In this document: positions 8,401-63,822 of the stretch, in pieces | How the letters are laid out: each line of letters opens with the position of its first letter | Position numbering within the stretch: the stretch's first letter is position 1 | Origin: Promicromonospora soli | Lineage (GTDB): Bacteria > Actinomycetota > Actinomycetes > Actinomycetales > Cellulomonadaceae | NCBI RefSeq assembly: GCF_014653785.1 | Contig: NZ_BNAS01000005.1 | Span: forward strand, 241,368 to 305,367 | Direction: 5' to 3' | Length of the DNA stretch: 64,000 bases | Notes under the pieces: model-generated | The model's database searches: none | What the model was told of the DNA's origin: nothing | Seen by the model: only the letters and a program-made list of their open reading frames with translations | Position numbers and translations under genes: made by a program

Positions 8401-8414
8401 CCCGGTCGTCAGGC
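8395..8414. terminator. Small hairpin between convergent genes
   Basis: GCCTGAC and GTCAGGC (7-bp arms, 6-nt loop) overlap the stop codons of the L,D-transpeptidase and the ABC ATPase. It may act in both directions; it is short and lacks a U tract. Confidence 0.3.
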
Positions 8415-9380: not shown

Positions 9381-10330
9381 CAGCTCACCGCCCAGCACGC
9401 GACGTGGTGCCCCTCGGCCACTTTCCGGAAGGGCGGGGCCTCGGCGCACTTGTCGTGCACCAGAGGGCAGCGGTCGCGGAACCGGCAGCCGGCGGGCGGT
9501 TCGAGGAGCGACGGCGGCCGCCCCTCGATGCCCTCGAGCTGCTGCTCCTCGTACCGGTCGCCGACCTTGGGCAGCGCCCCGATGAGCATCTTCGTGTACG
9601 GGTGCAGAGGCTGGCTGATGATCGTCTTGGCCGGCGCCTTCTCGGCGAGGTGTCCGGCGTACATGACGAGGATGGTGTCGGCGACCTGGAACAGCACGGA
9701 GATGTCGTGCGTGATGACGATCATCGACCGGACGAACCCGTGGTCGCGGAACTCGACGAGCGCCCGGGCGACAGCCTTCTGGGAGGACACGTCGAGCGCC
9801 GAGGTCACCTCGTCGCCGACCAGCAGCGACGGGTTCAGGAGCGTCGAGAGCACCAGCACGACACGCTGCTTCATCCCGCCGGACAGCTCGATCGGGTAGC
9901 GCCCCAGCACCTCGGCGTCGAGCCCGACGAGCTCGAGGCGACGTTCCAGCTCGGGCAGCACGTCCGCGTACCGGACGTTGTGCGCGGAGAGCAGGTCCCG
10001 GATCATCCGGCCGATCTTGCGGGTCGGGTTCATCGCGGACATCGCGTACTGCGGGATGAGGGACACCTCGCGGTAGCGGTGGCGCCGCATGGCGCCGTCG
10101 TCGGCCAGAGGCAGCTCGACGTCGTCCAGCACCACCGACCCGCCCACGTGCCGCATGCGGGTGTCGAGCCGGATGAGGGCCTTGCCGAGGGTTGTCTTGC
10201 CGCAGCCGGACTCGCCCGCGATGCCCATGATCTCGCCGTCCGCCACCTCGAAGGTGACGCCGTCGAGAGCCTTGACGTCGCCGCGGACGGTCCGGTACCA
10301 GACCTTGAGGTCGTTCACAGCCAGGGCCAT
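9380..10330 (-). CDS. Oligopeptide/oligosaccharide ABC transporter ATPase (OppD/DppD-like)
   Basis: A 316-aa protein with Walker A GESGCGKTT, signature LSGGMKQRVVLVLS, Walker B SLLVGDEVTSALD and the Cys-containing C-terminal block CRFRDRCPLVHDKC typical of OppD/DppD proteins. It follows the permease gene by 1 bp and its stop overlaps the start of the next ATPase gene, showing tight operon packing. Works as a heterodimer with the OppF-like ATPase on the cytoplasmic face. Confidence 0.92.
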   Translation of the reverse strand: MALAVNDLKVWYRTVRGDVKALDGVTFEVADGEIMGIAGESGCGKTTLGKALIRLDTRMRHVGGSVVLDDVELPLADDGAMRRHRYREVSLIPQYAMSAMNPTRKIGRMIRDLLSAHNVRYADVLPELERRLELVGLDAEVLGRYPIELSGGMKQRVVLVLSTLLNPSLLVGDEVTSALDVSSQKAVARALVEFRDHGFVRSMIVITHDISVLFQVADTILVMYAGHLAEKAPAKTIISQPLHPYTKMLIGALPKVGDRYEEQQLEGIEGRPPSLLEPPAGCRFRDRCPLVHDKCAEAPPFRKVAEGHHVACWAVS

Positions 10331-10331
10331 G

Positions 10332-15922: not shown

Positions 15923-17077
15923 GTGAGCGACATCAAGTACTCGTTCGGCCTGTGGACCGTCGGCTGGCCCGCCGCCGACCCCTTCGGCACGGCGACCCGC
16001 CCCGACCTCGACCCCGCCGACTCGATCCGCAAGCTCGCGGACCTCGGCGCCTGGGGCTTCACGTTCCACGACAACGACGTCTACCCCTTCGGCTCCGACG
16101 ACGCCGAGCGCCAGAAGCACATCGAATCCGTGAAGAAGGCCGTCGCCGAGACCGGCATGGTCTGCGAGATGGTCACCACCAACACGTTCACGCACCCCGT
16201 CTTCAAGGACGGCGCGTTCACCTCCAACAGCCGCGAGGTGCGCCGCTTCGGCCTGCGCAAGGTGCTGCGCAACGTCGACCTTGCCGCCGACATGGGCGCC
16301 TCGACGTTCGTCATGTGGGGCGGCCGCGAGGGCACCGAGTACGACAACTCGAAGGACCTCAACGCCGCGCACGCCCGCTATGCGGAGGGCATCGACACCG
16401 TTGCGGCCTACATCAAGGAGAAGGGCTACGGGCTCAGGATCGCGCTGGAGCCCAAGCCCAACGAGCCCCGCGGCGACATCTTCCTGCCGACGATCGGCCA
16501 CGCCATCGCGCTGATCGACTCGCTCGACAACGCCGACATCGTGGGCCTCAACCCGGAGACGGGCCACGAGCAGATGGCCGGCCTGAACTACACGCACGGC
16601 CTCGCCCTGGCCCTGCACGTCGGCAAGCTGTTCCACATCGACCTGAACGGCCAGCACGGCCCGAAGTTCGACCAGGACCTCGTGTTCGGTCACGGCGACC
16701 TGCTGTCCGCGTTCTTCACGGTCGACCTGCTCGAGAACGGCTTCCCGAACGGCGGCCCGCGCTACGAGGGCCCGCGCCACTTCGACTACAAGCCCTCGCG
16801 CACGGAGTACCTCGACGGCGTGTGGGAGTCGGCGAAGGCCAACATGGAGACCTACTCGATGCTCGCGGCCAAGGCCGCGGCCTACCGGGCCGACGCCGAG
16901 GTCCAGGCGGCGTTCGAGCACGCCGGGATCTTCGAGCTGGGCCAGTCGACCCTCGCCGAGGGCGAGTCTTTCGACTCCTTCCTCGCCGAGGCCGACCCCG
17001 ACGTCGACGCCCTCGCCGAGAGGGACTACGGCCTGGTCAAGCTGCACCAGCTCGCGCTGAAGCACCTGATCGGCTGA
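15923..17077 (+). CDS. xylA: Xylose isomerase
   Basis: A 384-aa protein of the short actinobacterial class. It converts D-xylose to D-xylulose using two divalent metals. The catalytic His is in [11 protein letters not shown] (~residue 52). Metal-ligand blocks include [12 protein letters not shown] (Glu), [36 protein letters not shown] and HFDYKP. Start GTG 15923 follows GAGGAGAC. It is first in a co-directional unit with xylB and is probably controlled by the divergent ROK repressor. The 113-bp gap to xylB contains a hairpin-forming repeat. Confidence 0.97.
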
Positions 17078-17100
17078 CCTCTCCACCCTCCACCCCGTTG

Positions 17101-17161
17101 GTTGTGGGCGTGATCATTGCGCCTAAAGTGGACGCGCAGTCGCAAAGATCGCGCCCACAAC
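17101..17161. repeat. Palindromic element, copy 2, between xylA and xylB
   Basis: GTTGTGGGCGTGATC (17101-17115) pairs with 17147-17161 with one G-U pair, and the inner TTGCG/CGCAA also pairs. The left half is nearly identical to the element at 14564. As RNA this makes a stable intercistronic hairpin that could lower xylB relative to xylA expression. Confidence 0.8.
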
Positions 17162-17190
17162 GAACGCGCCTTTACTCTCCTGGAGCACCG

Positions 17191-18687
17191 ATGCCCCTCG
17201 TCGCCGGCGTGGACACGTCCACGCAGTCCTGCAAGATCGTCGTGCGCGACGCCGAGACCGGCGCGCTGGTCCGGAGCGGTTCCGCCAAGCACCCGGACGG
17301 CACGGAGGTGGACCCGCAGCACTGGTGGGACGCCTTCCAGGAGGCGGCCGCCGCGGCGGGCGGCCTGGCCGACGTCGCGGCGCTCTCCGTGGGCGGCCAG
17401 CAGCACGGCATGGTCACCCTCGACGCCGACGGCCGGGTGATCCGCGACGCGCTGCTGTGGAACGACACCCGCTCCGCGCCGTCGGCCGAGGCCCTGATCG
17501 CCGAGCTGGGCGACGGGAATCGCGCGGCGGGCGCCCAGGCCTGGGCCGACGCCGTCGGCTCCGTGCTCGTCGCCTCCCTCACGATCACCAAGCTGCGCTG
17601 GCTGCGCGACAACGAGCCGGAGAACGCCGCCAGGGTGGCCGCCGTCGCGCTCCCCCACGACTGGCTGTCGTGGCGCATCGCGGGCTACGGGCCTGCGGGC
17701 GACCCGACCGCCCCCCTCGGGCCGCAGCTGGACAAGCTGTTCACGGACCGCTCGGACGCGTCCGGCACGGGGTACTACGACGCCTCCACCGGCCTGTACC
17801 GCCCTGACCTGCTGGAACGCGCCCTGGGGCGGGTCGACGTCGTGCTGCCGCGCGTGGTCGACGTGGCCGAGGCGGGTGCCGTGGCGCACCCGACCGTCGC
17901 GGGCTCGGCGGTGGACCATTCGACAGGCTCAGGGTCCGGTTGCCTCATCGGGCCCGGCGCCGGCGACAACGCCGGGGCGTCCCTGGGGCTCGGCATGACG
18001 CCGGGCGACATCGCCATCTCGATCGGCACTTCCGGCGTGGTCTCCGCCGTGGCGCCGAAGCGCACCGCCGACGGGTCCGGCGCGATCAACGGCTTCGCCG
18101 ACGCGACCGGCAACGCGCTCATGCTCGCCGTGACGCTCAACGCGGCGCGCGTCCTGGACGCTGCCCGCGAGGTGCTCGACGTCGACTTCGACGGGCTGGC
18201 CGAGCTGGCGCTGCAGGCTCCGCCCGGGTCCGACGGCCTCGTGCTCGTGCCGTACCTGGAGGGCGAGCGCACGCCCAACCGGCCCGACGCGACCGGCACC
18301 CTGCACGGCATCCGCCTCGCGACCTCGACCCGCCCGCACCTGGCGCGCGCCTACATCGAAGGCATGCTGTGCGGGCTCGCGGACGGGCTCGACGCGCTGC
18401 GCGCGCAGGGCGTCTCGGTGGAACGCGTGATGCTGATCGGCGGGGCGGCGCAGTCGCCGGCCGTGCAGCGGATCGCCCCGCAGGTCTTCGGGTTGCCGAT
18501 CGGCATCCCCGAGCCCGGCGAGTACGTGGCCGACGGCGCGGCGCGCCAGGCCGCCTGGGTCCTGGCCGTCGCGGACGACCCGGACGCCGGCGCCCCGGCA
18601 TGGTCCACGACGATCGCGACGACGCTCGACGCCGACCCGAAGCCGGTGATCCGCGAGCAGTACGGCGCGGTGCGCGACCTCAGCTGA
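17191..18687 (+). CDS. xylB: Xylulokinase with a small in-frame insertion
   Basis: A 498-aa FGGY-family kinase that phosphorylates D-xylulose. The N-lobe starts [10 protein letters not shown], substrate block GGQQHGMV is near residue 70, the catalytic Asp is in GPGAGDNAG (~residue 258), and the ATP-side motif is [11 protein letters not shown]. Start ATG 17191 has CTGGAG upstream. Odd point: residues ~240-250 ([10 protein letters not shown]) precede the conserved GDN loop and are encoded by TTCGACAGGCTCAGGG (from about 17919), the same motif seen in intergenic repeats elsewhere in the window. A repeat seems to have been tolerated in frame. Confidence 0.95.
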
Positions 18688-18688
18688 T

Positions 18689-20155
18689 ATGCCCGACACG
18701 TTCGCCGGCGGCCTGGTCAGCGCGCTCGCCCGCAGGGCGGGCGCGCTCGACATCGCCCTGCACACCGTCCAGGTGAGCCTCCGCGGCGAGACGGTGACGC
18801 ACGCGGTCAGCGAACCGCTCGACCTGGACACGCACCAGCGGATGTACTCGGTGTCCAAGACGGTCACGGGCCTGGCGATCGGGCTGCTCGCCGACGAGGG
18901 TCGGCTGGGCCTCGACGACCCCATCGCGAAGCACTTCCCCGAGATGGGCCCGGTCCATCCGTGGCTCGAGGCCACGACGATCCGGCACATGCTCGCCATG
19001 CGCGGCCCGCACCGGTCCACGACGTACAAGCTCACCGCGGGCGGCTGGCTGGAGTCCTACTTCCGGGTGGCGCCGACGCACCCGCCGGGCACGGTCTTCA
19101 CCTATGACACCAGTGCCTCGTACGTGCTGGCAGCGCTCGTGGAACGGCTCGCGGGCACCGTGCTCGCGGACTACCTGCGCCCCCGGCTGCTCGACCCGCT
19201 GGGCGTCAGCCCCTGCCTGCGGTTCCTCACCGGGCCGGAGGGCATCAGCCACGGGGGCTCGGGGCTGGTCTGCACCCCGCGCGACCTGCTGCGCCTGGCG
19301 CACCTCCTGCTTGAAAATGGCGTGCACGACGGCGCCCGGCTCCTGCCGGCCGGCTACCTGCGCGACGCCATGAGCCCGCAGGCCGACACCACCCTGCAGA
19401 CCTCGGACGTCGTATTGCGCGGCGGATACGGCTACCAGCTCTGGCTGCCCCGGCCGGGGAGCTGGCTGATGTTCGGCCTCGGCGGCCAGATCGTCTACGG
19501 CGACCCCGCCCGGGGGCTCGCCGTCGTGGTCACCGCGGATGCCCAGGCGTGCGAGAGCGGGCACGAGCGCCTCCTCGACGACGTCCTCGAGCGGCTCGTG
19601 GATCCGCTCGTCGACCGGCTCGACGCCGATTCGTTCGACGCCGGTCCGTCCGACGCCGCGGGCGTGGACGACGGGTCGGTCGCGAATGCCGTCGCCGTCC
19701 GGCTCCCCTGGCCAGCACCGCCACATGACGCCGCACACGCGCGGCCCGCCGGCGGCCGCTACGTGAACGTCGTCGACGGGCCCGGACCTGCGGAGCTCGT
19801 CCTGTCGCTCGACGACGACGACGGCGGCCGGCTGCGCAGCGCGGGCGGCTGGAACGCCGCCGACGGCCAGGCCACGGCCGGCGGCTGGGACATCGAGCTG
19901 CGGTTCGACCGGCCGGTCCGCACCGTGGTCGACGGCCAGCCCGCCGTCGTCACCGCAGGCTGGACCGGCGTCAACACCCTGGACGTGCGCTGCGCGCTGC
20001 TCGGTGACGAGCTCGCGACGTGGCGTGCGCGCCTCGCCTGGGCCGACGACGGCACGCTGACCGTCCAGTCACAGATCTTCGGCGAGACCGCCGACCAGGC
20101 ATGGACCTTCCACGCCGCCTACCACCCGGCGCCCGCGCCCGGCTCGCCGCGGTGA
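18689..20155 (+). CDS. Serine beta-lactamase-like hydrolase (class C/EstB type)
   Basis: A 488-aa protein. The N-terminal ~300 residues have the beta-lactamase/transpeptidase-like fold: nucleophile motif SVSK (~residue 53), Tyr motif YDTSASYVL (~143), and a Gly-rich GGQIVYGD in the KTG-box position. The C-terminal ~170 residues form an extra beta-rich domain. There is no signal peptide, so it is cytoplasmic and likely an esterase or amidase, not an antibiotic resistance enzyme. Its ATG is one base after the xylB stop, so it is probably co-transcribed; it might deacylate xylo-oligosaccharides, but that is a guess. Confidence 0.8.
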   Translation: MPDTFAGGLVSALARRAGALDIALHTVQVSLRGETVTHAVSEPLDLDTHQRMYSVSKTVTGLAIGLLADEGRLGLDDPIAKHFPEMGPVHPWLEATTIRHMLAMRGPHRSTTYKLTAGGWLESYFRVAPTHPPGTVFTYDTSASYVLAALVERLAGTVLADYLRPRLLDPLGVSPCLRFLTGPEGISHGGSGLVCTPRDLLRLAHLLLENGVHDGARLLPAGYLRDAMSPQADTTLQTSDVVLRGGYGYQLWLPRPGSWLMFGLGGQIVYGDPARGLAVVVTADAQACESGHERLLDDVLERLVDPLVDRLDADSFDAGPSDAAGVDDGSVANAVAVRLPWPAPPHDAAHARPAGGRYVNVVDGPGPAELVLSLDDDDGGRLRSAGGWNAADGQATAGGWDIELRFDRPVRTVVDGQPAVVTAGWTGVNTLDVRCALLGDELATWRARLAWADDGTLTVQSQIFGETADQAWTFHAAYHPAPAPGSPR

Positions 20156-20320: not shown

Positions 20321-21253
20321 TCAGCCCTTGACCGAGCCGATGAGCGCACCCTTGACGAAGTACCGCTGGATGAACGGGTAGACGAGCAGCATCGGCAGTG
20401 TCGCAACGACGATCACTGCCATCTTCACCGACTGCGCCGGGGGCACGACATCCACGACCGAGGCGTCCGCGTTCATGCCGCTCGCGACGATGACTATCTG
20501 GCGCAGCAGCACCTGGATGGGCCACTTCTCGGAGTCGTTGATGTACAGGATCGCGTTCTGGTAGGTGTTCCAGTAGCCGACGGCGTAGAACAGGCCGATG
20601 GTCGCGATCGAGGCGAGCGACAACGGCAGCACGATCCGCAGGAACACTCCGAGGTCGGAGCAGCCGTCGATGCGTGCCGCCTCCTCGAGGCTGTCGGGAA
20701 TCGCCTGGAAGAAGCTGCGCATGATCACGAAGTTGAACGCGTTGATCGCGACGGGCAGGATCAGCGCCCACAGCGAGTCGATGAGGCCCAGGTTCTGGAC
20801 CACGATGAACGTCGGGATCATTCCGCCGCTGAACAGCATCGTGAAGATGACGAGGAAGTTGATCACCCGGCGCCCGCGCAGGTAGGGCTTCGACAGCGCG
20901 TACGCCATGAACGAGGTGAGCAGCAGGCTCACGAATGTCCCCATAGCCGTGACGAACACGGAGACACCGAGCGCCCGGAAGATTGTCGACGTCGACAGGA
21001 TGTAGCGATACGCGTCGAGCGTGAACGTCTCGGGGATGACGACGAAGCTGCGCGTCGCGAGCTCGCCCGGCGTCGCGAACGAGCTGCCCAGCACGTTGAG
21101 GAACGGCAGTACGCAGATCAGCGCGAACCCGCCGAGCACGACGACGTTGACTACGCGGAAGACCCGCATCGCCGTCGTGGGTCGCCGGAAGCCACTCTCG
21201 CGCTTCGCGAGCTGGTCCAGGCTCACCCGGGGTGCGGCGTCGGTCGTGTTCAT
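20321..21253 (-). CDS. Sugar ABC transporter permease (LplC/MalG-like)
   Basis: A 310-aa protein with six predicted helices, preceded by a ~50-residue cytoplasmic N-terminus. The EAA-loop region reads EEAARIDGCSDLGVFLRIVL, typical of carbohydrate (CUT1) permeases, close to LplC/YtcP of pectin-type importers. Its ATG overlaps the stop of the small membrane gene (ATGA). Last gene of the pectin-oligosaccharide operon. Confidence 0.92.
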   Translation of the reverse strand: MNTTDAAPRVSLDQLAKRESGFRRPTTAMRVFRVVNVVVLGGFALICVLPFLNVLGSSFATPGELATRSFVVIPETFTLDAYRYILSTSTIFRALGVSVFVTAMGTFVSLLLTSFMAYALSKPYLRGRRVINFLVIFTMLFSGGMIPTFIVVQNLGLIDSLWALILPVAINAFNFVIMRSFFQAIPDSLEEAARIDGCSDLGVFLRIVLPLSLASIATIGLFYAVGYWNTYQNAILYINDSEKWPIQVLLRQIVIVASGMNADASVVDVVPPAQSVKMAVIVVATLPMLLVYPFIQRYFVKGALIGSVKG

Positions 21254-21729
21254 CTCGTGCTCCCAAGGTCGGGCTGCCGGTCGGGCCGTCGCAGCGCGAA
21301 CATCCCCGCGCTGACGAAGAAGAGGAAGGCGACGGGGTAGAGGACAAGCTGGCTGCCCACCAGGCAGACCAGGCCGGCGGCCGCGAAGAACGCCCCGGCC
21401 GTGCGGCCCCCCGGCCGGCGCCTGGCCAGAAAGATCCCCGTGATCCCGAGGAGCAGCAACACCATGAGGGTGAGGCCGAACCAGGCGGCGAGCGTTCGGG
21501 CGGCGTCGTACGCGCCACCCGTGGCACCGCCGGCCGTCAGATCCAGCCCGGCCCGCTGCATCTCGGGGTAGAGGGTGGCGAGGAAGCCCTCCTCGTCGAG
21601 CCGGTTCATCACCAGCGTGAACGCTCCGAGGAACAGTGTGGACAGGACCATGCCGGTCCCGGCCACCCAGACCTCGGCGGTGCGCCGCATGACGGACGCC
21701 TCCGGGATCCGGTCAGTCGCCGTCGCCAT
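21250..21729 (-). CDS. Small four-helix membrane protein (DUF4064-like)
   Basis: 159 aa, with hydrophobic segments near residues 15-35, 85-105 and two in 115-150, resembling DUF4064 proteins of unknown function; this match is tentative. Start ATG 21729 has a strong GGAGGAGGGG site, and it overlaps the GH28 3' end by 17 bp. Its stop overlaps the next permease start (ATGA). This coupling inside the importer operon suggests a helper of the transporter. Confidence 0.6.
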   Translation of the reverse strand: MATATDRIPEASVMRRTAEVWVAGTGMVLSTLFLGAFTLVMNRLDEEGFLATLYPEMQRAGLDLTAGGATGGAYDAARTLAAWFGLTLMVLLLLGITGIFLARRRPGGRTAGAFFAAAGLVCLVGSQLVLYPVAFLFFVSAGMFALRRPDRQPDLGSTR

Positions 21730-23005
21730 CGGCACTCCCCTCCTCCTGGCGCAGCGTCGGGCTGTCGTCGACGTGGAAGACCGGGCCGTCACACCCGTCG
21801 ACCCGGACCCGGGTGATGTCCGAGTCCGCGACGTTCCCGAGGTGGAACCCCTGCCGCACCATGAGGTCCACCCCGTCCGCCATGGCCGGTCGTCCCGGGA
21901 CGGCGTCGGCGGCGAAGGAGACCGCTATGTCGTCGAGGGTGAGCTCCGTCAGGGGCCGCTCGGGCAGCCCGTAGACGTGCCCGGCAGCGGCGTGCACGCC
22001 GCGAGCCGTGATGTGGGCGAGGTGGATCCGGCGGAAGACCGGGGTGGAGTCGTCGACCGGGTACGGGCGCCGGTCACCGACGTGCGGCTCGTCGCCGTCC
22101 GGCCCGCAGAAGTAGTGCGGGTTGATGACGATCGGGCACATCACGTCGCTCATTACGAGGTTCGTGACCCGGATGTCCTCGACGACACCGCCCCGGCCCC
22201 GGCGGGACTTGATGCGGATGCCACGGTCGGTGCCCTGGAAGACGCAGCCCGTGATGACGACGTTGCGTACCCCGCCGCTCATCTCGCTGCCGATGACCAC
22301 GCCACCGTGCCCGTGCACCATCGTGCAGCCCGTGATCGTGACGTTCTCGCACGGGACGCGTTCCGGCGAGCGCTCGGTGCCCGACTTGATGGTGATGCAG
22401 TCGTCGCCGACGTCGATGTGGCAGTCGCTGATCCGGACGTTGCGGCACGACTCCGGGTTGATGCCGTCGGTGTTGGGCGAGTCGGGCGGGTTGGTGATCC
22501 GCACGCCCGCCACGCTGACGTCCTGGCAGAGCAGCGGGTGCACCGTCCAGGCCGGGGAGTCGCGCAGCGACACGTCGCGTATCGTCACCCGCTCGCACTC
22601 GTGCAGGCCGATCAGTGTCGGCCGCGGGTACGCCAGGGAATCCGGGTCGTCGCGGAACTTGTCCCACCAGCGCTGCCCCTGGCCGTCGATGGTGCCGAGC
22701 CCCGTGATGGCGACGTCGGTCTCCCCGTGCGCGTACAAGCACGGGGAGTGCACGGAAGTGGGTGCGCCCTCCCAGCGTGCCTCGACCGGCGGGTACAGGC
22801 TCGGTTCGGGGACGAACTCCAGCCGGGCCCCCGCCTCGAGGTGCAGCTCGACGTGGCTGCGCAGGCGCAGCGCGCCGGTGCGGTGCACGCCGGCCCGGAC
22901 GACCACGGTGCCGCCACCGGCCAGCGCGGCCGCGTCGATCTCGGCCTGGAGCGCCGCGGTCTCCAGGGTGGTCTCCGTGGCGCCAGGGCCGGCGTGCACC
23001 GTCAT
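21713..23005 (-). CDS. Glycoside hydrolase family 28, intracellular polygalacturonase-like
   Basis: A 430-aa right-handed beta-helix enzyme. All four GH28 signatures are visible: SPNTDGI, DVGDDCITIKSG, GHGGVVIGSE and RGIRIKS. GH28 enzymes cleave alpha-galacturonide links in homogalacturonan or rhamnogalacturonan. There is no signal peptide, so it probably acts on imported oligosaccharides, possibly as an exo-acting enzyme. Start ATG 23005 overlaps the stop of the binding-protein gene (TGATG). The longer upstream frame is the shadow of that gene. Confidence 0.9.
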   Translation of the reverse strand: MTVHAGPGATETTLETAALQAEIDAAALAGGGTVVVRAGVHRTGALRLRSHVELHLEAGARLEFVPEPSLYPPVEARWEGAPTSVHSPCLYAHGETDVAITGLGTIDGQGQRWWDKFRDDPDSLAYPRPTLIGLHECERVTIRDVSLRDSPAWTVHPLLCQDVSVAGVRITNPPDSPNTDGINPESCRNVRISDCHIDVGDDCITIKSGTERSPERVPCENVTITGCTMVHGHGGVVIGSEMSGGVRNVVITGCVFQGTDRGIRIKSRRGRGGVVEDIRVTNLVMSDVMCPIVINPHYFCGPDGDEPHVGDRRPYPVDDSTPVFRRIHLAHITARGVHAAAGHVYGLPERPLTELTLDDIAVSFAADAVPGRPAMADGVDLMVRQGFHLGNVADSDITRVRVDGCDGPVFHVDDSPTLRQEEGSADGDGD

Positions 23006-24513
23006 CAGCCGTTCACCTCGGCGTACGCCGCCGTGAACTCTTCGCTGATCTGGTCGAGGCCCTGTCCGCGCAGGCTCTCGATCGTCGCCTCGAAGTCGGA
23101 CATCTCGATGGCCCCGGTGATGTACTGGTTGTAGGCGTCGGTGACCTGCTGCTCGATGGTCGACCACCGGGTGTCGTACGTCTTGGACGTGAGCGACTGC
23201 GCCGGGTTGGTGATGACGAACTCCTCGTTCTCCGCCATCAGCTCGTTGGCCTCGTCCACGTACGGGCTCGTGCTCTTGTACGTGACGATCTTCTCGGACG
23301 GACGCGAGGAGCTGTAGGGCTGGACCTCCTGCTCCCACGCGGTCTGGTCGGTGATCGTCACCACGCCGTCGCCGTCGAGTTCGTAGTGGGTGCCCTCGAC
23401 GCCGTTGGTCATGAGGCCGAACGCCTCCTCGTCCATGAGCTTGTCGATGAAGCCGAGCACCTTCTTCAGCTCCTCCTCGGTCTCCACCTCGGACTTCGGG
23501 ATCGCGAGCCAGCCGCCCATGCCGCCACCCGTGTCGGTGAGGATGCGGCGCGGCACGTCCTCGTAGGTGACGTCGTTGACCAGCGCCCACTTCATCGGCG
23601 TCTTGGGGTCGGCGCTCTCGGCGAGGGCCAGGTAGTTCTTCGCCTCGAACAGGCCGGTGACGACGATCCCGCCCTTGCCCTGCGCGATGCCATCCTGCTG
23701 GTTCTGCTTCTGGACGGTGACGAACTCCTGGTTCACCCCGCCGTCCTCGTACACGCCGCGGTACCACTCCATGGCTTCCTTGTAGGCGTCGGTGGTGAAG
23801 CTCGGCACCACCTGTCCGTCGTCGGTCACCTCGAACTGGCTGCCCGCACCGAAGTACCCCGTGAGGGACCGGAAGGCGACCTTGAAGCTCTCCTCGCGGT
23901 CGTAGAAACCCGTGGTGTCGTCCTTTCCGTTGCCGTCCGGGTCGTCGTGGGCGAACGCGTGGGCGACCTTCGTGAGGTCCTCGATCGTGTGCGGCACCTC
24001 GAGACCGAGGTTGTCCAGCCAGTCCTGACGCACGACGACGCCGTAGCGGGCCTTGATCTTCTGGAACGGCACGCCGTACAGCTCGCCGTCGATCCGGGCG
24101 GAGTCGAGCGTCACCGGGTCGATCTGCGACAGGTTCGGGAACTCCGCGAGATAGTCCTCGACGTCCCAGAACATGCCGGAGGTGAGCGCCGTCCGCACCG
24201 TGGTGCTGTCACCCTGGGTGAGCGAGACGATGTCGGCTAGCGTGCCCGAGGCGAGCGCCGCGTTGATCTTCTCCTCCTTCGAGGCGTCGGGTACCCACTG
24301 CATCTCGAACTCGGTGCCCGTGTACTCCTCGAGCGCCGTCTCGATGACCCCGTCCTTCTCGGGCGTCGTCGGAGTGTGCAGCATCGCCATCCACGTCACC
24401 GGGCCGTCGGCGTCACCCCCGTCCCCGTCGCCCGACCCGCCACCGCATGCGGCGAGCGTGAGTGCCAGCACCGTTGCCGACGCCACCGCTGCTGAGTTCC
24501 TTCTTGAGATCAT
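23005..24513 (-). CDS. Sugar ABC transporter binding lipoprotein (LplA-like)
   Basis: A 502-aa protein with signal and lipobox LAAC (~residue 23), then a Gly/Asp-rich linker and an extracellular solute-binding family 1 body, with the long form typical of LplA/YtcQ proteins of pectin-oligosaccharide importers. Start ATG 24513 has GGGGAC upstream. It is coupled to GH28 by a TGATG overlap, which ties uptake to intracellular hydrolysis. No ATPase gene lies in the operon; a shared MsmX/MsiK-type ATPase elsewhere is expected for this class. Confidence 0.9.
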   Translation of the reverse strand: MISRRNSAAVASATVLALTLAACGGGSGDGDGGDADGPVTWMAMLHTPTTPEKDGVIETALEEYTGTEFEMQWVPDASKEEKINAALASGTLADIVSLTQGDSTTVRTALTSGMFWDVEDYLAEFPNLSQIDPVTLDSARIDGELYGVPFQKIKARYGVVVRQDWLDNLGLEVPHTIEDLTKVAHAFAHDDPDGNGKDDTTGFYDREESFKVAFRSLTGYFGAGSQFEVTDDGQVVPSFTTDAYKEAMEWYRGVYEDGGVNQEFVTVQKQNQQDGIAQGKGGIVVTGLFEAKNYLALAESADPKTPMKWALVNDVTYEDVPRRILTDTGGGMGGWLAIPKSEVETEEELKKVLGFIDKLMDEEAFGLMTNGVEGTHYELDGDGVVTITDQTAWEQEVQPYSSSRPSEKIVTYKSTSPYVDEANELMAENEEFVITNPAQSLTSKTYDTRWSTIEQQVTDAYNQYITGAIEMSDFEATIESLRGQGLDQISEEFTAAYAEVNG

Positions 24514-24576
24514 GAGCTGTCCCCTCTGACATGTGAATGACTGCCCACCTGCGACGTCGCGGGCGGGTACTTCGGT

Positions 24577-25269
24577 CTACCGAGCCGCGAGCGCGGCTCG
24601 CGGTCTGTGCGGCCCTCCCTCGGCTCCCGGGTTCGCCTGCCCCGACTCTGCCGCCGGGTCAGCCGTCAGCCCACGGAACACGGCACGGGTGACGAGCCCG
24701 ACGGCGAACGCGGGGATCCCGACCCCGAACAGGACGAGCAGCGGCAGCGCGAGCTGCCACGTCAGCCACCAGGTAGCCCCGACGACGGTCGCGCCGAGGA
24801 TCGTCCAGTGCAGGGAGCCGAACCCGATCAGCAGCGCCCCGCCGAGCTGGCGCGGGATCGTGGCCAGGTCCGTCGCCACCAGCACCGGGAACACGTAGGA
24901 CCAGGTGATCCCGAGCACTCCGAGGGCGCCGACGTTGAGGATCTGGACGTACCAGCTCGTCGCATGGAAGACGTTGGTGACGATCACGGCGCCGGCCGCC
25001 AGGAGGATCCAGGAGATCAGCATCGAGCGTCCCGCCTGCTCGCGGGCGTACCGCCAGAACACGCGCGCGGGCGGCGGGGTCTCGCCGGCGCGCAGCCATC
25101 GGTCGATGTACTTCGCCATCGCGTACGACGCCGGCCCGATGCCGAGCACGCCGAGGCCGAGCGCCGTCGTCGCGACCCAGAGCAGGTTGAGGAACGCGAC
25201 GCGGTACACGCCGGTCAGGAACGTGTTGATCCGGACGAAGCCTTCGAACGAGAACACGGTGTGCACCAC
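24577..25269 (-). CDS. YesL-like (DUF624) membrane protein
   Basis: About 230 aa with five to six membrane segments. The beginning FSFEGFVRINTFLTGVYRVA followed by FLNLLWV is typical of DUF624/YesL proteins, which sit beside LplBC-type sugar importers in rhamnogalacturonan clusters (YesL in Bacillus). The exact role is unknown; probably assists the importer. Start is one of several GTG codons (25269, 25266 or 25257), with GAAGGG close upstream. Confidence 0.75.
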   Translation of the reverse strand: MVHTVFSFEGFVRINTFLTGVYRVAFLNLLWVATTALGLGVLGIGPASYAMAKYIDRWLRAGETPPPARVFWRYAREQAGRSMLISWILLAAGAVIVTNVFHATSWYVQILNVGALGVLGITWSYVFPVLVATDLATIPRQLGGALLIGFGSLHWTILGATVVGATWWLTWQLALPLLVLFGVGIPAFAVGLVTRAVFRGLTADPAAESGQANPGAEGGPHRPRAALAAR

Positions 25270-25292
25270 CCTTCGCAGCCGGAACGGCCGCC

Positions 25293-26270
25293 TCAGTAGA
25301 CGCCTTCTTCGCCGAAGCGCTTGGCCAGCCGGTTCGCCATGACCACGAGCAACAGGCCGACCAGGCCCTTGAAGAGCCCGACGGCGGCCGCATAGCTGAG
25401 CTGCCCGTTCTGGATGCCCGCCGTGTACACGTAGGTGTCGAAGATCTCGCCCACCTCGCGGTTCAGTGAGTTCATCACCAGGAACATGTGCTCGAAGCCC
25501 AGCTCGAGGAAGTCGCCGATGGCCAGGATGAACATGACGATGATCGTCGGCCGGATCGCGGGCAGCGTGATGTGCCACGACTGTCGCAGGCGGCCTGCGC
25601 CGTCGAGCTGCGCGGCCTCGTAGAGCTGGACGTCCACGGCGGTCATCGCGGCGAGATACACGATGGTGCCCCAGCCCGCGCCCTTCCAGATCTCCTGGCC
25701 GATGTACAGCGGCCGCAGCCAGTCGGGGTCGGTGAGGAACGGGACGGGCTCGCCGCCGGCGTCGACGATGAGGTTGTTGATGCTGCCGCCGTCGGTGGAG
25801 AGCAGCACGTAGAAGATCGAGGCGACGATGACCCACGACAGGAAGTGCGGCAGGTAGATGACGGACTGCACGCTGCGCTTGAAGTACTTGCCCCGCAGCT
25901 CGTTGAGCAGCAGCGCCAGGATGATCGGCACCGGGAAGGCGAAGACCAGCAGCAGGAGGGAGATCACCAGCGTGTTGCGCAGCAGCATCGAGAAGGTGTC
26001 CTCGGTGAACAGCCGCACGAAGTGGTCGAAGCCCACCCACGGGCTGCCGCCGATGCCGAGGAACGGCATGTAGTCCTGGAAGGCGATCACGAGCCCGCCC
26101 ATGGGCGCGTACTTGAACACCAGGAAGTACGCGATGCCCGGCAGCGCCATCAGGTAGAGCGTCCGGTGCCGCCAGAACGACGAGCCGCGCGGACGGCGTC
26201 GGGTCTGCGGCCGTTCCGGGTCGGCGCTCGCCGCGGGCGGCCTCGGCGCCGCCGTGGTGGCCGCGCTCAT
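25293..26270 (-). CDS. Sugar ABC transporter permease (LplB-like)
   Basis: A 325-aa protein with an Ala/Pro/Arg-rich cytoplasmic N-terminus (~1-40) and six helices. The EAA loop reads YEAAQLDGAGRLRQSWHITL. The sequence WVGFDHFVRLFTEDTFSML after helix 1 is typical of LplB/YteP permeases. First gene of the pectin operon, divergent from GH43 across a 278-bp control region with three LacI-type operators. Confidence 0.92.
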   Translation of the reverse strand: MSAATTAAPRPPAASADPERPQTRRRPRGSSFWRHRTLYLMALPGIAYFLVFKYAPMGGLVIAFQDYMPFLGIGGSPWVGFDHFVRLFTEDTFSMLLRNTLVISLLLLVFAFPVPIILALLLNELRGKYFKRSVQSVIYLPHFLSWVIVASIFYVLLSTDGGSINNLIVDAGGEPVPFLTDPDWLRPLYIGQEIWKGAGWGTIVYLAAMTAVDVQLYEAAQLDGAGRLRQSWHITLPAIRPTIIVMFILAIGDFLELGFEHMFLVMNSLNREVGEIFDTYVYTAGIQNGQLSYAAAVGLFKGLVGLLLVVMANRLAKRFGEEGVY

Positions 26271-26356: not shown

Positions 26357-26370
26357 AGCAACCGGTTTCC
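26357..26370. promoter_or_regulatory. LacI-type operator 1
   Basis: AGCAACCGGTTTCC is the exact reverse complement of operator 2. The core AACCGGTT is palindromic, typical of LacI/PurR-type sites. It lies on the permease side of the divergent region. Confidence 0.75.
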
Positions 26371-26454: not shown

Positions 26455-26468
26455 GGAAACCGGTTGCT
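26455..26468. promoter_or_regulatory. LacI-type operator 2
   Basis: GGAAACCGGTTGCT, centred about 98 bp from operator 1 and 48 bp from operator 3. Spacing would allow looping. It is likely bound by the LacI protein encoded at 28078. Confidence 0.75.
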
Positions 26469-26503: not shown

Positions 26504-26514
26504 GAACCGGTTTC
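26504..26514. promoter_or_regulatory. LacI-type operator 3
   Basis: GAACCGGTTTC lies about 35 bp before the GH43 start, overlapping the expected transcription start or leader of the plus-strand operon. Confidence 0.7.
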
Positions 26515-26548: not shown

Positions 26549-28081
26549 ATGGCGCTCTACTCCAACCCGGTTCTCGACGCCGACTGGCCGGACCCGGACG
26601 CGATCCGGGTCGGTGACGACTTCTGGATGATCGCGTCGAGCTTCAACCGCGCCCCCGGGCTCCCGGTCCTGCGCTCGAGCGACCTGGTGACCTGGGAGCA
26701 CGTCGCCAACGCGCTGCCGCTCGTCCCGCCCGTCGACCACTACGCGCTCCCCCGGCACGGCTCGGGCGTCTGGGCGCCGAGCCTGCGACACCACGACGGG
26801 GTCTTCGTCATCGTGTACCCCGATCCCGACCACGGGATCTACGTGCTCACCGCTACCGATCCCCGCGGTCCGTGGTCGGAGCCCTGGTGCCTGATCCCCG
26901 GCCGGGGGCTGATCGACCCGTGCCCGCTGTGGGACGACGACGGCCGGGCGTACCTCGTGCACGGCTGGGCCGGCAGCCGTGCCGGTATCAAGAACCGGCT
27001 GACCGTCGTCGAGGTCGACCCCGGGCTGCGGCAGGTCGTCGGGAGCCCGCGCACCGTCGTCGACGGCGACGAGCTGCCCGGGTTCCGCACCCTCGAAGGC
27101 CCGAAGCTTTACAAGCGGGACGGCTGGTACTGGATCTTCGCCCCGGCGGGCGGCGTGGCGACCGGCTGGCAGACCGTCTTCCGGTCACGCTCCGTGTGGG
27201 GCCCGTACGAGCACCGGGTGGTGCTCGAGCAGGACGCGACTCCCGTCAACGGTCCGCACCAGGGCGCGTGGGTCGACGCCCCGGACGGATCCGACTGGTT
27301 TCTGCACTTCCAGGACCGCGGCGTCTTCGGGCGCGTCGTGCACCTGCAACCGATGCGCTGGGAGGACGGGTGGCCGCAGCTCGGCGAGCCCCTGGGGCAC
27401 GGCCGGGGCCGGCCCGTCCTCAAGCATCCTCTGCCGGTCCCGGCGCGTGGTGACGAGCAGCAGGAGCCCGTCCGCAGCGACGACTTCGCCGCTCCCGCGC
27501 TTGCGGCCCGCTGGCACTGGCAGGCGAACCCGCTGCCCGACTGGTACGAGGCGCCCGGCGACGGCGCGCTACGCCTCCGGGCGCAGGTCTCCGCCCGCGG
27601 CGACCTCCGCGACCACGGTGCGGTGCTCTGCCAGCAGCTCCCCGGCCGACCGAGCACGTGGACGACGCGCGTGACCCTCCAGGGAGCGGCCCCAGGGACC
27701 CGGTGCGGGCTGGCCCTCCTCGGCCGCGAGTACGCCTGGGTCGGCCTCGTCCGCACGCCGACCGGGATCGACGTCGCCCTGCGGCGCAGCGCCGGGGTCG
27801 CCGAGGACTCGTTGGCGCAGTCGCCCGCGCCGGGAGGCGCCGTCGACCTGCGGCTCGCGCTCGACGCCGATGGCACGGCTACCTTCTCCTGGCGCGCCGC
27901 CGATCGCGCCGGTACGGAGGCGTGGCACGATCTGTCGTCGGCGTGGTCCGCCGTCGAGGGACACTGGATCGGTGCGGAGGTCGGGCTCTTCGCTGCCGCC
28001 CCGCCGGGTTCACCGGTCGGCGAGCGCGGCGGCGCGCTCTTCGGTCCCGTTCGGGTCACCGTCGCAGGAAAGGACGCATGA
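26549..28081 (+). CDS. Glycoside hydrolase family 43 (beta-xylosidase/arabinosidase-like)
   Basis: A 510-aa protein. The N-terminal ~310 residues are a five-bladed GH43 propeller with the Asp-bearing start WPDPDAIRVGDDFWM, the IYVLTATDPRGPWSEP block and the Glu-bearing TLEGPKLYKRDGWYWI. The C-terminal ~180 residues are a concanavalin-A-like beta-sandwich usual in long GH43 members. No signal peptide, so it likely trims imported oligosaccharide side chains (arabinose or xylose) in the cytoplasm. Start ATG 26549 follows AAAGGCAGG. Its stop overlaps the regulator start (ATGA). Confidence 0.9.
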   Translation: MALYSNPVLDADWPDPDAIRVGDDFWMIASSFNRAPGLPVLRSSDLVTWEHVANALPLVPPVDHYALPRHGSGVWAPSLRHHDGVFVIVYPDPDHGIYVLTATDPRGPWSEPWCLIPGRGLIDPCPLWDDDGRAYLVHGWAGSRAGIKNRLTVVEVDPGLRQVVGSPRTVVDGDELPGFRTLEGPKLYKRDGWYWIFAPAGGVATGWQTVFRSRSVWGPYEHRVVLEQDATPVNGPHQGAWVDAPDGSDWFLHFQDRGVFGRVVHLQPMRWEDGWPQLGEPLGHGRGRPVLKHPLPVPARGDEQQEPVRSDDFAAPALAARWHWQANPLPDWYEAPGDGALRLRAQVSARGDLRDHGAVLCQQLPGRPSTWTTRVTLQGAAPGTRCGLALLGREYAWVGLVRTPTGIDVALRRSAGVAEDSLAQSPAPGGAVDLRLALDADGTATFSWRAADRAGTEAWHDLSSAWSAVEGHWIGAEVGLFAAAPPGSPVGERGGALFGPVRVTVAGKDA

Positions 28082-30078
28082 TGGCGCGGGTCGCGAAGAG
28101 CGGTGCCACGATCGGGCAGGTGGCCGAGGCCGCCGGCGTCTCGCGGGCCACCGTCTCGCGCGTCATGAACGGCCAGCAGACCGTTGACGCGGACATGGCC
28201 GAGCGGGTGCGCGCGGCGGCCGCCGAGCTGCAGTACCGCCCCAGCACGATGGCGCGCGGCCTCTCCCTCGGCCGGACGAACTCCGTCGCACTCGTTGTCC
28301 CTGATCTCGGCAACCCGATGTTCCAGCAGATCCTGCGCGGCGCGGTCGCCGCGGCCGAGCCGTTCGGCTTCCGGTTCCTGGTCGCAGAGACCGCGGAGCA
28401 CGCCGACGCCGAGGCCGAGATCGCCCTCGAGGCGCGGCTGCGCTGCGACGCCCTGATCCTCGCCGCGCCGCGCAGCCCGGAGGCCGTCCTGCGCGAGCTG
28501 CTGCCCCAGGTCGAGCCGGTGGTCCTCATCAATCGCGAAGTCGCGGGGCTCGACGTGCCGACGGTCCGCGTCGACTACGGGGCGGGTGTCCACAGCGTCG
28601 TCGATCACCTCGTCGCGCTGGGTCACCGCGAGCTCGTCTACGCCGCCGGACCGCGCGCCAGCGCCTCCCACGCGCAGCGCGCTCGCGCGCTCGAGGAGGC
28701 CCGCGAGCGCCACAGCAGCCTTCGGGTCACCACGGTGGCCTGCGGGTCGACCGTCGACGACGGGTACCGGGTCGCCGACGAGGTGCTCGCGACCGGGGCG
28801 ACCGGGGTGGTCGCGTTCAACGACCTCGTCGCGTTCGGGCTGCTCGCCCGCCTCAACGAGACGGGGGTCGACGTTCCCGGGGACATCTCGATAGCGGGCT
28901 TCGACGACATCGAGCTCGCGCACTACGCGACGCCCTCCCTGACAACCGCTGCCGTGCCCCAGGCCGAGCTCGGCCGGCGGGCCTGGGGTCTGCTGCACCA
29001 GATCGTCTCGGCCCGCGGCGCGACGCCGGGCACGGGCGCGACGCCTGGCACCGAGAGGTCGATCCCGTCGAAGAACCCGCTGGTCATGCCCGGGCTCGTC
29101 GTGCGGTCCAGCACCGGACCGGTCCCGCCGTCGCGACGACTCCCGACGCCGTCGTCCGACCGTGCCGGCCGTGCGCGGACCGCCGCGCCGGGCGGGCGTG
29201 CCACCTGGGCCGCCACGAGCGACGGCTGGACCCTGACCGCCGAGGACCAGCCGCTGGCCCGCTACGCCAACGGCGAGTCGATGCCCGGGGTGCACAGCCC
29301 CCGCCCGCACCTGCACCCCCTGCACTCGCTCGGCGGGGTCGCGATGACCCAGACGACGCCGACCGACCACCGGCACCACTACGGGGTGTCGATGGCGGTG
29401 GCCGACGTGAACGGCACCACCTACTGGGGAGGCCGGACGTTCGTCCGCGGCCAGGGTCCGACTCTGCTCTCCAACCACGGTCGGCAGCTCACGGTCTCCG
29501 CCGCGGTGGTCGAGGGCGGGGCGACGCTCTCGAGCCAGGTCCGCTGGGCGAACGAGCGCGGCGGGGAACAGCTCGTCGAGCAGCGCCGGCTCACGGGTCT
29601 GCTGCTCCCCGAGGTCGAGGCCTGGGCGCTCGGCTGGTCGAGCCGCCTGGACGCGGGCGACGCGGACGTGGTGATCGGCAGCCCGGCGACGAGCGGCCGG
29701 CCCGGCGCGGGCTACGGCGGGCTCTTCTGGCGCCTCCCCTTCGCGGACGCGAGCTCCGTGCTCACGGCGGACGCCGACTCCGAGGCCCAGGCGCACGGCT
29801 CGCGCTCGCCGTGGATTGCGATAGTGCGGCGCACCGGCGGCGCGTGGACGACGCTCCTGCTCGTGCAGCCCGGCGACGTCGACCCATGGTTCGTTCGGGT
29901 CACCGACTACGTCGGGGCCGGCCCGGCGCTCGCCTGGGACCGTCCCCGGCGCATCGCCGCCGGGACGTCGCTCGACGTCGAGCTGGTGGCCGCGGTCGCC
30001 GACCGGCGGCTCGACGCCGCGGACGCCGCCGACCTGGCCGAGTTCGCCGTGGCACGAATGCGAGCGTCGGCGAAGTAG
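28078..30078 (+). CDS. LacI-family regulator fused to a PmoA/DUF6807 domain
   Basis: A 666-aa fusion. Residues ~8-60 are the LacI HTH and hinge (ATIGQVAEAAGVSRATVSRV). Residues ~65-340 are the periplasmic-binding-like effector domain ending near MPGLVVRSS. A Pro/Arg-rich linker with a GATPGT repeat follows. From ~375 to the end is a PmoA/DUF6807 domain (RPHLHPLHSLGGVAMTQ, DHRHHYGVSMAVADV, TYWGG). Ordinary LacI proteins stop near residue 345. Start ATG 28078 overlaps the GH43 stop and has GGAAAGG upstream. It probably represses both divergent sugar operons through the AACCGGTT sites. The role of the PmoA domain is unknown. The stop codon lies in an inverted repeat. Confidence 0.88.
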   Translation: MMARVAKSGATIGQVAEAAGVSRATVSRVMNGQQTVDADMAERVRAAAAELQYRPSTMARGLSLGRTNSVALVVPDLGNPMFQQILRGAVAAAEPFGFRFLVAETAEHADAEAEIALEARLRCDALILAAPRSPEAVLRELLPQVEPVVLINREVAGLDVPTVRVDYGAGVHSVVDHLVALGHRELVYAAGPRASASHAQRARALEEARERHSSLRVTTVACGSTVDDGYRVADEVLATGATGVVAFNDLVAFGLLARLNETGVDVPGDISIAGFDDIELAHYATPSLTTAAVPQAELGRRAWGLLHQIVSARGATPGTGATPGTERSIPSKNPLVMPGLVVRSSTGPVPPSRRLPTPSSDRAGRARTAAPGGRATWAATSDGWTLTAEDQPLARYANGESMPGVHSPRPHLHPLHSLGGVAMTQTTPTDHRHHYGVSMAVADVNGTTYWGGRTFVRGQGPTLLSNHGRQLTVSAAVVEGGATLSSQVRWANERGGEQLVEQRRLTGLLLPEVEAWALGWSSRLDAGDADVVIGSPATSGRPGAGYGGLFWRLPFADASSVLTADADSEAQAHGSRSPWIAIVRRTGGAWTTLLLVQPGDVDPWFVRVTDYVGAGPALAWDRPRRIAAGTSLDVELVAAVADRRLDAADAADLAEFAVARMRASAK

Positions 30079-37012: not shown

Positions 37013-37783
37013 TCAGCCCAGGCGGATGAAAGTGGGGTTCGACTGCCAGATGGGTCGGAAGTCGACCACGGTGCCCGGCTTGGACGCGTCGATCATGGTG
37101 TTGCCACCGGCGTAGATCGAGACGTGGCCCGGCGTCCACATCAGGTCGCCCGGCTGGGCCTCGGAGGCCGGCACCTGGGTGCCGTAGCCGGCCTGCGCCG
37201 ACGACGAGTGCGGCAGCTCGATGCCGAGCTGGCCGAAGACGTACTGCGTGAAGCCGGAGCAGTCGAAGCCGCTCGGGCTGGCGCCGCCGGAGACGTACGG
37301 CACGCCGACGTAGCGGCTCGCGATCGAGATCACGGAGTTGCCGATCGCCGAGGCGGGGACATCGACGGAGGTGGCGGTCGAGACGGTGGTGGCGGCGGCC
37401 TCTGCGGCCTCCTCCGCGGCTTCGTCGGCGGCGAGCTCGGCCTGGTAGTCCTCGTTCTCAGCGGCGGAGACCACGGAGACCGCGGACTTCTCCACGGCGA
37501 GCTCGGCATCGGGCGCGACGGTCACGACCGGAGCGTGGGTCAGAGACTCACGGGCCTGCGACGTCAGCGCGTTGAGGTCGACCGAGTTCATCTTGGCGTG
37601 GCCGGTCTCCATCGGAGCGGCCTGCGCTGCCATCGCGCCACCGAAGGTCGAGACGAGAAGCGCACCACCTGCAGCGGCGACCGCGGTACGGCGACCGACA
37701 GCGGCGTTCTGGGCAAGCTCGGTAAGCGGAGTCACGGGTCGTCGCGCAGCACGATGGCGTGCGCGGGTCGTACGTGCAGTCAC
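37013..37783 (-). CDS. Secreted NlpC/P60 (C40) cell-wall endopeptidase
   Basis: A 256-aa protein. It has an Arg-rich signal peptide with a hydrophobic core ending at MAAQAAP (~residue 58), an Ala/Glu-rich helical linker (~80-135), then an NlpC/P60 domain with the catalytic Cys in FDCSGFTQYVF (~175) and His in PGHVSIYAGG. Cleaves peptidoglycan stem peptides outside the cell during division or growth. Start GTG 37783 has AAGGAGAGG 6 nt upstream; a longer frame runs through the riboswitch and is not real. Controlled by the c-di-AMP riboswitch immediately upstream. Confidence 0.93.
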   Translation of the reverse strand: MTARTTRARHRAARRPVTPLTELAQNAAVGRRTAVAAAGGALLVSTFGGAMAAQAAPMETGHAKMNSVDLNALTSQARESLTHAPVVTVAPDAELAVEKSAVSVVSAAENEDYQAELAADEAAEEAAEAAATTVSTATSVDVPASAIGNSVISIASRYVGVPYVSGGASPSGFDCSGFTQYVFGQLGIELPHSSSAQAGYGTQVPASEAQPGDLMWTPGHVSIYAGGNTMIDASKPGTVVDFRPIWQSNPTFIRLG

Positions 37784-37800
37784 GTAGTACCTCTCCTTGA

Positions 37801-37970
37801 ACGCCTTCGAGGTCAGCTGTCGGGTTCGGGTGGGAGAAATCACCCGGCCGTGCAATCCCGAAGGACTGCTCGGCTTCACCCCTAGGACGCGCCCTGGCGC
37901 CCGATGGTGGGTCCCCCGCCTCTGTCATGCGGTCGTCTTGGGGCCCCGGCCGGTGACAGAGTTCGGCGTC
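37801..37970 (-). promoter_or_regulatory. ydaO/yuaA-type c-di-AMP riboswitch
   Basis: Minus-strand RNA matches the class consensus in order: ACGCCGAACTCTGTCACC (5' side), GGGGGACCCACC, TAGGGGTGAAGCCGAGCAG and, at the 3' side, ACCCGAACCCGACAGCTGAC then CTCGAAGGCGT. The closing stem pairs ACGCC (37965-37969) with GGCGT (37801-37805). It ends about 10 nt before the ribosome-binding site of the NlpC/P60 gene, a well known target. c-di-AMP normally turns expression off. Confidence 0.93.
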
Positions 37971-37980
37971 CGTCCGAGGA

Positions 37981-58702: not shown

Positions 58703-58798
58703 TGGACTCCAATACGTTTCGTCAGGGACAGCCCCGGCTGTGGCCGAAATCCCTCATGGACCGGTTTCGTCCGGCACCCTTGCGGGAACAGCACGAGC

Positions 58799-63811: not shown

Positions 63812-63822
63812 ACGCCGATCCG

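Follow-up and report, generated by a model that had tools for sequence, protein, structure and literature searches.

The subject of this analysis is a six-gene operon on the minus strand (26270-20321) of a 64,000-nucleotide (nt) window of the Promicromonospora soli genome (contig NZ_BNAS01000005.1, positions 241,368 to 305,367 of the forward strand). The window is the whole stretch of DNA that was analysed, and coordinates refer to it unless another stretch is named. The operon pairs a candidate importer for pectin fragments with a predicted polygalacturonase of family GH28 and two small membrane proteins of the families DUF624 and DUF4064, and its genes, in order of transcription, are as follows (E, expectation value; ABC, ATP-binding cassette).

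25293..26270, minus strand: LplB/AlgM1-type permease, the first gene of the operon (PF00528, 60.7 bits; closest solved relative AlgM1, 4tqu_M, E 1.1e-83)
24577..25269, minus strand: DUF624 (YesL/MusI-like) membrane protein, GTG start assumed (PF04854, 55.5 bits; weak MusI_fam match, 24 bits)
23005..24513, minus strand: lipoprotein solute-binding protein (lipobox-like LTLAAC; PF13416, 47.3 bits; AlgQ1/AlgQ2 among its solved relatives)
21713..23005, minus strand: GH28, exo-polygalacturonase type, no signal peptide seen (PF00295, 160.1 bits; 3JUR, E 5e-51)
21250..21729, minus strand: DUF4064-like membrane protein, family of Staphylococcus aureus AuxB (PF13273, 28.4 bits, under the cut-off of 32.1; orthologue alignment of 30)
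20321..21253, minus strand: LplC/AlgM2-type permease (PF00528, 43.7 bits; AlgM2, 4tqu_N, E 4.2e-56)

None of these six genes encodes an ABC ATPase, which bears out the initial annotation of an importer operon lacking one; the DUF624 gene, lying between the LplB and binding-protein genes, was absent from that annotation. The stop codon of the binding-protein gene and the start codon of the GH28 gene overlap by one base (TGATG, 23007-23003), and the stop codon of the DUF4064-like gene and the start codon of LplC overlap by 4 nt (ATGA, 21253-21250). Both junctions had been described as coupled. Among 10 relatives, with start codons picked by rule, the binding-protein/GH28 overlap was seen in a single one, the remaining nine having gaps of 19-110 nt, and the 4-nt DUF4064/LplC overlap was retained in nine. 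The coupling of GH28 to the binding protein thus stands for the window with its TGATG overlap, and was rejected as a conserved device. The coupling of a DUF4064-like protein to the last permease is upheld by the ATGA overlap, the family label being qualified by a window score below the PF13273 cut-off. In the gap where the LplC and serine-hydrolase genes converge, a 32-nt inverted repeat (20178-20209/20257-20288, 88% complementary, 47 nt spacing) may be a terminator working in both directions. The 13-nt core of the repeat had no match in 14 further stretches of this genome.

The gene set is conserved beyond the window. In an order-wide sample of 297 genomes, a GH28 match at E <= 1e-40 was found in 16, the window's own genome included, of which 11 have the whole operon and five do not (G027, G068, G192, G158 and G200). 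Since the set recurs with 10 of the 12 close GH28 homologues of the order (>=47% identity), it is not a chance assembly. A profile (A3) built from the window copy and 29 copies at named loci detected the DUF4064-like protein in 13 of the 297 genomes, namely the 11 operon genomes plus G175 and G245, and in all 13 its gene stands just before LplC; the same profile did not find it in the remaining 284, among them the five GH28 genomes without the operon. The operons of G175 and G245 comprise LplB, DUF624, binding protein, DUF4064 and LplC with no GH28 gene, and xylA, GH43 and LacI genes are close; GH28 matches are lacking altogether in G175, and two distant ones lie elsewhere in G245. Because the DUF4064-like gene stays where GH28 is absent, it follows the importer and not the enzyme. 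One Antribacter locus (L095) has LplB, DUF624, binding protein, LplC and GH28 and no DUF4064, and importers without DUF4064 were not searched for across the 297 genomes.

A second set consisted of 80 named GH28 relatives among 578 confirmed ones, 17 from Actinomycetota and 63 from Bacillota by genus name. These loci were found by the GH28 motif patterns NTDG and GHG, so that conservation of the two motifs there is partly by construction; the set overlaps with the genome sample (L098 matches G027, and L102 matches G069), and some loci end at contig ends, which lowers the neighbour counts. LplB and LplC were near in 15 of the 17 actinobacterial and 52 of the 63 Bacillota loci, DUF624 in 15/17 and 23/63, and DUF4064 in 14/17 and 15/63, respectively. 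The next detected gene after DUF4064 was LplC at all 14 actinobacterial loci and GH43 at 14 of the 15 Bacillota loci, 14 of which also have DUF624. Reversed open-frame decoys reached at most 20.6 bits with the DUF4064 profile, matches being counted from 29 bits, and three of the 15 Bacillota matches are weak (L104, 29.7; L158, 43.2; L110, 54.4 bits). The DUF624 profile, built from operon copies, did not pick up the genome's remaining DUF624 genes in control loci; it therefore covers the near subfamily only, and its counts may be low.

The GH28 protein passes the curated PF00295 cut-off of 22.9 bits with its 160.1 bits, and is the single GH28 match in the whole genome. The closest named relatives are from two Myceligenerans (80 and 81% over best segments) and then Isoptericola, and the closest solved relative, 3JUR, has been identified as a Thermotoga exo-polygalacturonase (PMC10059216); exo action would be predicted for the window enzyme as well. 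With the catalytic residue set (N, D, DD, H, R, K) taken from the same paper and mapped onto the window protein by motif, the columns N178 D180, D201 D202, H233 and R264 K266 were invariant in 13 of 13 aligned GH28 proteins. The 3JUR alignment starts at residue 19, within the first, Ala-rich helix of the fold, only about 15 residues lie ahead of the fold, and a charged n-region is absent. As the fold begins almost at the start of the protein, a signal peptide does not fit, and the predicted enzyme is without an export signal; the earlier claim to that effect was confirmed both by inspection and by this alignment.

GH28 enzymes are often secreted, and one might suppose that this one acts outside the cell after non-classical release, the importer then taking up its products. 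A crude N-terminal hydrophobicity score, which reaches 1.8 for the window protein and 8 of the 80 relatives, could be read in favor of this, but the score stems from the Ala-rich fold helix that can be aligned to 3JUR, and since that helix scores high, crude hydrophobicity is a poor test for signal peptides here. The 80 GH28 proteins had a median of 1.14, compared with 2.30 in a set of 74 binding proteins (67 of these at 1.8 or above), and the Thermotoga enzyme PelB has been called cytoplasmic (PMC3750489). A secreted GH28 was rejected, with the 3JUR alignment being decisive, and we consider action outside the cell by any such route highly improbable.

The genome (5.38 Mb, 20 contigs, rated 100% complete) contains OB_MalK, the MalK C-terminal domain, only once, in a gene that lies some 50 kb away from the window on the same contig (C5). 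The ATPase concerned passes the UgpC subfamily model NF008653 (473.1 bits vs a cut-off of 432), and MsmX (6yir) is among its best solved relatives, AlgS being a relative as well. An LplB query returned 47 matches from the genome, of which 38 reach E 3e-9 or better, including one with internal stops; with one OB_MalK ATPase against 38 strong MalF-like permease matches, one ATPase for many permease pairs is the simplest reading. Each of the 11 GH28-operon genomes has one or two OB_MalK matches, none of them at the operon. Near the 80 named relatives (flanks of up to 8 kb) the ATPase query gave 10 matches, the best of which scored 153 bits, vs 819 for the genome's own, and lies on the strand opposite to the operon; the only two matches in the window, of about 81 bits (8412-10331 and 58058-58753), are both outside the operon. 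A search for the MsiK-like ATPase that had been postulated elsewhere in the genome thus yielded one gene of the UgpC/MsmX type and favors the proposal, and a dedicated ATPase gene, which would have spoken against it, was found neither at the operon in the window nor near the 80 relatives.

On these sequence comparisons, the UgpC/MsmX-type ATPase would be the one that powers this importer. It counts against such a reading that the enumeration took in OB_MalK-bearing ATPases only, and an ATPase without that domain might be used instead. MsmX, however, serves related importers (PMC5730181), as does AlgS, a relative of the genome's UgpC-type ATPase, and no other ATPase gene adjoins the operon or its 80 counterparts. 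We give a different ATPase a slim chance.

On its 5' side the operon faces a divergent GH43 gene, and the following features of that region bear on its regulation.

26360..26367, no strand assigned: putative LacI-type operator AACCGGTT, copy 1, one of three window copies, all in the operon-GH43 gap
26458..26465, no strand assigned: putative LacI-type operator AACCGGTT, copy 2, same intergenic cluster
26505..26512, no strand assigned: putative LacI-type operator AACCGGTT, copy 3, same intergenic cluster
26549..28081, plus strand: divergent GH43 with GH43_C2, no obvious signal peptide (PF04616, 241.6 bits; PF17851, 72.9 bits; ATG start assumed, GTG at 26528 possible)
28078..30078, plus strand: LacI-type regulator with a DUF6807 domain in a single open frame (PF00356/PF13377; PF14100, 198.6 bits)

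In 300 first-order simulations of the 64-kb window, AACCGGTT occurred 0.27 times on average and at most twice, and a cluster of three within 200 bp arose in none. Fourteen other stretches of the genome (253,014 bases), picked for importers, the ATPase and pectate lyases rather than at random, hold eight further copies, four with an extended AAACCGGTT or AACCGGTTT core and four without it. One extended copy stands about 44 nt ahead of an internal ATG, taken as the start, of an operon with an altronate dehydratase and importer genes, another is 50 nt ahead of the ATG of a PL1 pectate lyase gene, and two are 215 and 237 nt ahead of the ATG of another PL1 gene; both of these lyases have N-termini that look by eye like signal peptides. 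The exact palindrome was also found near the start of the LplB open frame in 8 of 15 named relatives tested. From the adjacency of the genes, we infer that the neighbouring LacI protein binds the palindrome as its putative operator. The fusion of LacI and DUF6807 in a single frame was seen in nine of 29 other loci (L060, L061, L062, L066, L091, L096, L097, L179 and L180), the two were in separate frames in six, and one or both were not found in 14.

As to the substrate, LplB is closest to AlgM1 among solved structures, with MalF reaching only E 2e-11, LplC is closest to AlgM2, and AlgQ1/AlgQ2 are among the solved relatives of the binding protein, not the best ones. The genome also has four PL1 pectate lyase matches, one UxaC match, and an altronate/galactarate dehydratase gene in an apparent operon with another importer. 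That operon lies on the minus strand of a separate stretch (L183:159-5327), where a second CUT1 importer is followed by the dehydratase gene, with the same palindrome at the 5' end; in a further stretch (L186:8087-10435, minus strand) pectinesterase, PL1 pectate lyase and ricin-B-type carbohydrate-binding domains are joined in one protein. UxaC was present in all 13 importer-operon genomes tested (11 with the GH28 operon, plus G175 and G245).

Taken together, we think it likely that the locus is an operon under LacI control which takes in pectin fragments and trims them. Lyases of family PL1, with their genes elsewhere, would free oligogalacturonides outside the cell, perhaps in xylosylated form; the lipoprotein would capture them and the LplB/LplC pore import them, powered by the genome's one MsmX/MsiK-type ATPase. 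Inside the cell, GH28 would take galacturonate off the chain end and GH43 would strip side-chain xylose or arabinose, the galacturonate continuing via UxaC and altronate dehydratase, and the DUF624 and DUF4064-like membrane proteins would assist the importer. The initial annotation had likewise placed uptake before cleavage, and this order is favored by what the genome encodes: a GH28 without export signal and with its catalytic residues in place, a single OB_MalK ATPase, a palindrome shared with PL1 and altronate dehydratase genes, and UxaC. Several observations weigh against the proposal. UxaC occurs in 20 of 24 genomes without the operon as well (31/35 overall), and with 11/11 for the genomes with the GH28 operon it is uninformative as an operon marker. 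Two of the four PL1 loci are without the extended palindrome, and 7 of the 15 named relatives tested are without the exact palindrome near LplB. In addition, G175 and G245 carry the importer with DUF624, DUF4064, GH43 and xylA in an operon without GH28, from which it follows that the substrate of the importer need not be that of GH28.

The last point leads to another explanation, in which the importer takes up a xylose-bearing oligosaccharide (xylogalacturonan or other), GH28 is an optional trimmer of the galacturonate backbone, and the xylose goes into xylA-xylB. The operon is adjoined on the plus strand (15923-20155) by xylA, xylB and a beta-lactamase-fold serine hydrolase gene, and of the 15 named LplB-bearing loci from Actinomycetota, 14 have the serine hydrolase nearby and four have xylA. 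Besides the window, xylA adjoins the operon in 2 of 10 operon relatives and both GH28-less loci; GH43, whose relatives in the Protein Data Bank (PDB) include an arabinofuranosidase and a beta-xylosidase, is beside 8 of the 10 relatives and at 12 of the 15 named loci. On the other side, xylA is outside the examined flanks of most relatives, the permeases and binding protein are akin to an importer of alginate, a uronide, and the palindrome is common to pectate lyase and altronate dehydratase genes, with none near xylA in the window. Pectin-related genes also accompany the set in Bacillota: one locus (L126) has a gene that is GH88/105-type by Pfam, an esterase-like gene and a pectinesterase gene, and another (L140) an esterase-like gene and, by eye, a GH88/105 lookalike. 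We regard the xylose explanation as possible without favoring it, and it overlaps with the pectin reading. With GH43 and xylose genes adjoining and the importer kept where GH28 is absent, a xylosylated galacturonide would be as possible a substrate as a plain one.

The two small membrane proteins deserve separate treatment. The DUF624 protein is over its PF04854 cut-off (55.5 vs 24.2 bits), and both Bacillota DUF4064 orthologues scanned pass PF13273 (34.5 and 48.6 bits), a threshold that the window copy misses. An AlphaFold2 model of the DUF4064-like protein (predicted local distance difference test, pLDDT, 87.5) has four long helices, the first two being separated by shorter ones, and that of the DUF624 protein (pLDDT 90.9) is all helical. 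Foldseek matched neither protein to a PDB structure at E <= 0.001; the top probabilities, to be taken as hints, were a CdvB2 filament (0.80), claudin-4 (0.66) and TARP (0.44) for the former, and CTL1 (0.89) and CysZ (0.72) for the latter. The DUF4064 family has been assigned to the tetraspanin clan, and AuxB is described as a four-helix homodimer exchanging partners, whose interface tryptophan is said to be strongly conserved across the family (PMC12505970). In our alignment Trp83, a candidate counterpart of the AuxB tryptophan, was kept in 27 of 30 sequences.

MusI is an accessory protein of the maltose importer of Corynebacterium glutamicum, and it resembles the present case in that a CUT1 importer and a membrane protein are encoded together. 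The weak matches to MusI_fam (NF052431) make the window DUF624 protein a distant relative and not a member (24 bits vs a cut-off of 160); at E <= 0.01 the model was matched by 21 of the 35 DUF624 proteins of these loci, the best at 3.7e-11. Of the genome's six DUF624 matches, five have a CUT1 permease gene no more than about 4 kb away, in one case on the opposite strand. Our literature searches found no paper about MusI beyond an editorial containing the word MusEFGK, no title on sugar importers among those listed for DUF624 and DUF4064, and nothing for YesL/YteU with rhamnogalacturonan.

Given the tie between DUF4064 and LplC and the weak MusI_fam kinship of DUF624, both proteins may be accessory parts of this importer. 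Going further, the DUF4064-like protein could serve a uronide importer that has no ATPase of its own as an auxiliary subunit of the AuxB type and the tetraspanin clan, forming a dimer through its conserved tryptophan and binding LplC co-translationally, and together with the MusI-like DUF624 protein steadying the pore, helping to recruit the shared ATPase or tethering GH28 and GH43 at the pore exit; so specific a scheme is tentative, and we would sooner doubt it than rely on it. The accessory role itself has points against it, as 48 of the 63 Bacillota loci are without a DUF4064 match and the Bacillota DUF4064 gene is not beside a permease gene. These are also grounds for supposing that the two proteins are not transporter parts at all, but act in the envelope or in signalling, like AuxB, or are passengers of the pathway. 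AuxB, the one studied DUF4064 protein that we found in the literature, has a kinase and GpsB, but no transporter, as its described binding partners (PMC12505970). Moreover, where DUF4064 occurs in Bacillota it is GH43 that nearly always comes next, importers there evidently work without either protein (LplB/LplC near 52/63 loci, DUF624 near 23, DUF4064 near 15), and the actinobacterial locus L095 keeps LplB, LplC and DUF624 without DUF4064. Against this stand the invariable succession of DUF4064 and LplC at the 14 named actinobacterial loci and in the 13 genomes of the order, the persistence of the gene without GH28, and the failure to find it in the other 284 genomes. We take the passenger view seriously and place its chances not far short of even.

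The arrangement itself is not unusual, and follows plans known from Thermotoga and Bacillus. In Thermotoga maritima, the extracytoplasmic lyase PelA, the importer AguEFG and the cytoplasmic polygalacturonase PelB are described as belonging to the UxaR regulon under one regulator (PMC3750489), and the combination of lyase, ABC importer and cytoplasmic polygalacturonase is shared with the present system, the nearest solved GH28 relative 3JUR also coming from Thermotoga. The regulator there is of the GntR type, whereas here it is of the LacI type, and the importer here is of the LplB/LplC-AlgM type with GH43, DUF624 and DUF4064 partners. In Bacillus subtilis, YtcQP-YteP and YesOPQ are reported as galacturonide importers without an ATPase of their own, energised by the multitask MsmX (PMC5730181), and a DUF624 gene adjoins YesU (PMC6120924); an ATPase encoded elsewhere and a nearby DUF624 gene are thus common to both. 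They differ in that GH28 and DUF4064 accompany the importer here, and the B. subtilis control genome had no GH28 match. The alginate importer AlgQ-AlgM1M2-AlgS of Sphingomonas provides the closest solved relatives of the permeases, and its binding protein is among those of ours. AlgS is the dedicated ATPase of that system, which differs in this from a shared one, and to our knowledge no DUF624 or DUF4064 partner of it is known. Finally, S. aureus AuxB has the DUF4064 domain in common, along with four membrane helices of its own and a tryptophan to which Trp83 may correspond. It differs in its long C-terminal tail and its binding to PknB and GpsB (PMC12505970), the gene here being coupled to a permease gene.

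The pectin part of the system is ordinary; what is new is how firmly a DUF4064 protein is tied to this importer. The locus bears on the wider question of how dozens of sugar importers in one cell draw on a single ATPase without mix-up. Two membrane proteins without assigned function that accompany one type of importer in several genera, and that also occur, in another gene order, with its relatives in a second phylum, are concrete candidates for accessory subunits, and as the DUF624 and DUF4064 families have no assigned general role, the locus offers both a testable job.

Two features of the window lie apart from the operon. A c-di-AMP riboswitch (Rfam RF00379, 61.7 bits) at 37786-37973 on the minus strand overlaps the 5' end of the open frame 37013-37879. 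Also on the minus strand, three long frames with similar C-terminal ends (49176-52427, 52502-55588 and 60487-63813) have by eye the look of related AfsR-type regulators.

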